Source of the DNA: Cristatella mucedo
Lineage: Eukaryota; Bryozoa; Phylactolaemata; Cristatellidae
Direction: 5' to 3'
DNA: 64,000 nt
Assembly: GCA_009760855.2 (NCBI GenBank)
Contig: WPIO01000007.1
Location: 3,339,501 to 3,403,500, forward strand
Positions 69-42,410 of this stretch are shown piece by piece. A program made the position numbers and the translations under genes. Positions within the stretch are counted from its first letter, which is position 1; each line of letters begins with the position of its first letter. The notes under the pieces are model-generated. The model was not told where the DNA came from. It saw nothing but the letters and a program-made list of their open reading frames with translations, and did no database searches.

Positions 69-298
69 CTTGCGGCAGCGGCATCCAAGCTGCTGCAGCC
101 TGCAGTCTCGCAGCAAGCGTCCTCCTCGTCGTCGTCGGCAATGGCGGCAGCGGCTGCTGCTGCCGAGCCATGCGAGTTCAATGCCCGTGACTTGCCCGGC
201 ATCAGCAGCTCCATGCAAACCTGCGTGCAACTGCCTGGCGCACTCCGAAGGCGGCCGAGGAACGCCTGCAGCACGTACTCGGCCAGCTCGCAGTTCTC
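69..298 (-). CDS. TIMELESS: TIMELESS exon 13 (last exon in window)
   Basis: This 230-nt exon is bounded by TTTCGTTTAG|G and [27 protein letters not shown] matches the family's LVTFAKYILGKFF helix, then comes ELLMPGK at the place of ELLFWKN. After that the sequence becomes low complexity: a run of eight Ala residues, then DDDEED and Cys/Ala-rich residues. Two bases are left over, so the gene continues beyond position 1. Confidence 0.75.

Positions 299-42410: not shown

Follow-up and report, generated by a model that had tools for sequence, protein, structure and literature searches.

A TIMELESS-family gene on the minus strand

The window, the whole stretch of 64,000 nucleotides of Cristatella mucedo DNA that was analysed, carries a TIMELESS-family gene on its minus strand. 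The first-pass annotation had recognised motifs in the order of the TIMELESS family from GDTY to LAEYVL, and a motif search of the window located all of them on the minus strand, with these two at the ends as annotated: GDTY at 42344-42333, GLDELL at 22338-22321, FMECHGSL within 2524-2501, FATPRI at 1531-1514 and LAEYVL at 286-269. One further GDTY, on the plus strand, is unrelated to the gene. Eleven exons of 100-230 nt (1673 nt in total) chain from an ATG at 42410 to position 69 with consistent phases and without a stop codon; their splice scores vary and are mostly good, and 71% of third codon positions (counted in an exon set with a shorter E2) are G or C.

The chain, all on the minus strand, opens with E1 (42311..42410), which holds the start codon, ends in phase 1 and was placed by motif order and its GTGAGT donor. 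It continues through E2 (40709..40865; phase 1 to 2), which was chosen on splice and codon scores, E4 (31749..31911; phase 2 to 0) and E5 (27743..27855; phase 0 to 2) to E7 (22237..22354; phase 2 to 0), which carries GLDELL, has suitable splice sites and resembles residues 198-245 of Drosophila TIM. After an interval of about 18 kb, in which the candidate exon lists gave no confident exon, a partial E8 (4377..4446) with an uncertain 5' end closes in phase 0 at a donor scoring 3.8. It is followed by E9 (4081..4199; phase 0 to 2), E10 (3756..3932; phase 2 to 2), E11 (3377..3483; phase 2 to 1), whose donor is weak (−1.0), and E12 (2466..2661; phase 1 to 2), which contains FMECHGSL and matches a human TIMELESS bait in tblastn (E = 6.4e-4). 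E13 (1340..1532; phase 2 to 0), with FATPRIMR, and E14 (69..298; phase 0 to 2), with LAEYVLQAF, complete the part within the window, beyond which the gene runs on. Thirteen exons in one frame had originally been proposed; eleven chained in phase and E8 as a partial twelfth bear this out in part, and the thirteenth is at best a tentative 47-nt exon between E7 and E8 (17018..17064), which fits in phase and has weak splice and codon scores. As the first-pass annotation gave no exon coordinates, its 13 exons and 562 residues could not be matched to ours one by one.

Two elements of earlier models were discarded. A candidate E3 (32740-32619), similar to Drosophila TIM 'LRTFRRAIGFGQ', has poor codon usage and by eye the look of a tRNA-derived repeat; it is unnecessary because the 157-nt E2 joins E4 in phase. 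An E10 ending at 3835 and an E11 starting at 3514 were replaced by 3932-3756 and 3483-3377 on the basis of splice sites, phase and similarity, judged by eye. At the other end, the proposed extent of more than 42 kb is borne out within the window, and the gene goes on past the window edge at which the annotated coordinates stop. Three further minus-strand exons join in phase in the flank: E15 (C665:3337983-3338268; SWSEQEHDDLFELYFKLK...) and E17 (C665:3336793-3337140), which are similar to TIM, and E16 (C665:3337480-3337660), whose resemblance to TIM was seen by eye only. The E17 stretch MAAVAFYSVCC... resembles the C-terminal part of Drosophila TIM (E = 1.6e-5, in a bait search of the flank). 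These exons extend the span of the gene to at least 45 kb, and its 3' end was not found.

The long introns house other elements. A single-exon open reading frame for a rhodopsin-like receptor (7tm_1, E = 2.7e-10) lies on the plus strand at 17905-19617, antisense within the E7-E8 intron. Pieces of non-LTR retrotransposons, with reverse transcriptase and endonuclease, occupy the minus strand at 41117-42190, within the E1-E2 intron, and at 47085-48077 and 48754-49731.

The reality of the gene was assessed with a purpose-written spliced aligner, using Drosophila TIM and human TIMELESS as baits. The timeless region scored 340, compared with a mean of 112.7 (sd 7.6, maximum 130.2) for 40 dinucleotide-preserving shuffles, and the control stretches scored 117.6 (opposite strand), 95.3 (the rest of the window, which is shorter), 98.1 (flank, minus strand) and 107.6 (flank, plus strand). 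The gene is real, not a chance alignment. No second close copy was found when E10-E14 were searched against the genome (572 Mb in 688 contigs), as the five places returned all lie inside this window. The same assembly includes a mitochondrial contig, C688 (21,008 bases), in which an ND3-like piece is repeated; in the 17,000 bases of it that were examined, eight protein genes were recognised by eye, on a single strand and in the invertebrate code, a pattern suggestive of a spiralian. Pieces similar to COX1 occur on C166, C83, C549 and C299.

Family assignment and a separate Timeout

Membership of the TIMELESS family, as first annotated, is upheld by searches of PDB chains. An early 462-residue chain (E up to 10) returned four matches, all named timeless: Drosophila TIM (PDB 8dd7; 1.6e-30, 109.9 bits), human TIMELESS (2.7e-14, 56.4 bits), a worm timeless (9.5e-5) and a human fragment (0.095). 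Since the chain had been built with TIM baits, exons were also tested singly. E13 alone matched Drosophila TIM at 8.4e-10 (41.7 bits) and the human protein at 0.011 (19.4 bits), with three designed proteins following at E between 0.2 and 1.3. E12 alone matched the Timeouts of worm (0.011) and human (0.063) and gave no match to Drosophila TIM, and part of E17 matched a TIMELESS homologue (4xhw, 0.077; 4xht, 0.078) about as well as Drosophila TIM (0.13), both weakly. Against Pfam, neither of two preliminary half-chains hit TIMELESS. In the profile check suggested with the original annotation, a 677-residue chain reached 14.7 bits with PF04821, for which the cut-off is 25, and two other families likewise remained below threshold. 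With no other family above its Pfam cut-off, nothing in this search assigns the chain elsewhere.

The comparison with Drosophila TIM (PDB 8dd7 chain B) extends to the domain order, the GDTY motif, a W-S-x-x-E segment, the C-terminal domain and the start of the protein, which is M-E-W here, M-D-W in Drosophila TIM and M-D-L in human TIMELESS. It also extends to a feature that had been taken as a peculiarity of the gene. The acidic linker between the FMECHGSL and FATPRIMR segments is indeed absent, as the in-phase junction of E12 and E13 leaves only a few residues separating the two cores, whereas the aligned segments of human TIMELESS stop at 527 and restart at 687, a gap of about 160 residues. 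Drosophila TIM, however, aligns through this region unbroken, so that compactness at this place is a trait of TIM and not an oddity of the bryozoan protein. The differences from Drosophila TIM are the low identity, about 24%, and the long linker that follows the GLDELL-like helix in the fly protein, which is not seen here and may sit in unfound exons; the shortness annotated after GLDELL, next to the E7-E8 interval of about 18 kb, may therefore be only apparent.

A genome search with the PF04821 profile found two places, both on contig C96, and missed the timeless gene of the window itself. The C96 gene is a conserved Timeout: in a spliced alignment it is identical to human Timeout in 228 of 450 columns (51%), and its N-terminal part passes PF04821 with 186.4 bits. 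The Timeout orthologue of human TIMELESS is therefore this gene and not the one in the window, with which both it and the vertebrate TIMELESS/Timeout proteins (PDB 7pfo, 5mqi) share family and fold order.

The C96 Timeout also shares intron positions with the window gene. Seven of the 13 introns of the TIM chain (a count that includes the intron of the tentative exon), namely those after E1, E2, E5, E8, E9, E10 and E11, coincide in column and phase with one of 13 Timeout introns in the protein alignment, and at most three exact matches arose in 200,000 random placements. E2 is 157 nt long in both genes and agrees with Timeout exon 2 at both boundaries. Of the remaining six, the intron after E4 has a Timeout intron of matching phase seven columns away, the introns after E7 and after the tentative exon are without a counterpart, and the part of Timeout compared does not reach as far as those after E12, E13 and E14. 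The TIM exons had been settled by the time the Timeout exons were determined, so the shared introns independently support both the gene model and an intron-retaining duplication, and they indicate that TIM and Timeout are old paralogues.

Placement of the gene and alternative readings

The tree that had been suggested as a check places the gene with Drosophila TIM, at 94.3/90 under LG+G4 and 95.7/90 under LG+F+R3, among only six sequences rooted on the fungal relative 6xwx (Tof1). (An LG+C20 run, with support of 97.5/63 and branch lengths at their limit, was disregarded.) The two long TIM branches may have been drawn together by long-branch attraction, and a deeper position is not rejected: with the gene placed outside every other animal sequence, the AU p is 0.121 in the six-sequence test. 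This last result is what an ancient third paralogue, branching off before the split of TIM and Timeout, would produce, and the near-equal identities to both families (110 of 450 columns with Drosophila TIM and 108 with human Timeout) fit it as well. The gene is further from the Timeout of its own genome (86 of 450), and the 143 columns in which both Timeouts agree against Drosophila TIM decide nothing, as it sides with TIM in 29 and with Timeout in 28. An ancient third paralogue is nevertheless unlikely. The best-supported topology pairs the gene with Drosophila TIM, HMMER bit scores for both the chain and E13 are about twofold higher for Drosophila TIM, and the missing linker is common to TIM; in addition, neither PF04821 nor E10-E14 turned up another TIM candidate in the genome, although both searches can miss diverged exons.

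The first-pass annotation had itself suggested a fast-evolving Timeout or a lineage-specific paralogue. That the gene might be a Timeout, a replication-fork protein, that evolved fast or was duplicated within the lineage draws on the common family and introns, on an identity to human Timeout that about equals that to Drosophila TIM, and on E12, which taken alone favours Timeouts. We regard it as very unlikely, as a conserved Timeout exists as a separate gene on C96 and the acidic linker is absent. The topology tests point the same way, with AU p values of 0.0022 for the gene as sister to all Timeouts, 2.9e-4 as sister to the human and C. mucedo Timeouts together, and 5.3e-7 as sister to the C. 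mucedo Timeout. Furthermore, in the 222 columns in which the human and C. mucedo Timeouts differ, the gene agrees with the human protein in 42 and with its own genome's in 20, which argues against a recent duplication. Decay into a timeless pseudogene, to which the strong divergence, the exon or exons not found between E7 and E8, and introns that carry simple repeats and fragments of transposons could point, is highly improbable given eleven chained exons that are open, matched in phase and bounded by GT-AG sites, three flank exons likewise open and in phase, and the 71% of G or C at third positions.

What this analysis establishes is a chain of exons homologous to the TIMELESS family, a Timeout elsewhere in the genome with which it has introns in common, and two type I cryptochromes. 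The window probably contains most of a strongly diverged orthologue of insect-type TIM, whose role would be a fly-like light reset mediated by cryptochrome. The gene looks like an ordinary, though fast-evolving, clock gene and not something new. The duplication that gave rise to TIM and Timeout is reported to predate the protostome-deuterostome split, with TIM present in a mollusc and an annelid (PMC2943474), and TIM has been described as Platynereis tim (PMC3913041), oyster CgTim (PMC5224872) and Bathymodiolus timeless (PMC7351958). Platynereis and Bathymodiolus are also described as having Timeout and a light-receptive cryptochrome. Since molluscs and annelids are already known to have TIM, the notable feature here is the divergence.

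Cryptochromes, PERIOD and a possible clock role

Two single-exon open reading frames for type I cryptochromes (C111:2889726-2890325, L018; C111:2927908-2928507, L019) are neighbours about 38 kb apart. They encode 561 and 560 residues, 71% identical to each other, and both end in a Drosophila-like tail, HC-x-PSDD-x-ELRRF-x-WLP. The best PDB match of the first is the light-receptive cryptochrome of Platynereis (4.1e-180), followed by Drosophila CRY. The pair possibly arose from a retrocopy that was later duplicated. A third gene on the same contig has one exon that best resembles vertebrate-type cryptochromes (8.7e-17), and C442 resembles CRY-DASH by eye.

PERIOD was sought in the genome with the PAS region of Drosophila PER, which returned two weak places only (E = 0.013 and 0.256). 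The first, a PAS-B-like exon (C686:687845-687943, L026), is about equally near to ARNT, BMAL, HIF and PERIOD and was left unassigned. The PERIOD family profile PF21353 found none in the genome, in a search run with no positive control. A missing PERIOD is weak evidence, because an exon-by-exon search passes over diverged exons.

The N-terminal helix of fly TIM is described as entering the flavin pocket of light-activated cryptochrome, where it replaces the cryptochrome's own tail; cryptochrome mediates the degradation of TIM, and loss of type I cryptochrome is usually accompanied by loss of TIM (PMC11362059). Type I cryptochrome is reported to be widespread among spiralians (PMC9498864). From a TIM that starts M-E-W and cryptochromes with fly-like tails in one genome, we infer a light-input module of the clock. 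The product of the window gene would be an armadillo-repeat scaffold that type I cryptochrome binds in the light. The N-terminal helix of this TIM (MEW...) would occupy the flavin pocket instead of the cryptochrome tail, TIM would then be degraded, and light would in this way reset a repressor loop that contains PERIOD, as it does in flies. Any role for the N-terminal tryptophan itself would be a guess. A variant of this scheme, in which most constraint on TIM has been lifted in this lineage, perhaps including that of pairing with PERIOD, and TIM serves chiefly as a light-labile partner of the two type I cryptochromes, seems distinctly unlikely; if true, it would amount to a clock input module without its usual PERIOD partner.

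Read as an insect-type TIM, the gene adds a strongly diverged member, one that lies under the Pfam threshold, to the invertebrates that retain both TIM and Timeout. Its occurrence together with two type I cryptochromes fits the rule that the two are usually retained or lost jointly, and the sharing of introns within one genome supports an intron-preserving duplication independently of sequence similarity. Annotation by Pfam alone could miss a TIM of this kind and lead to a false report of its loss.
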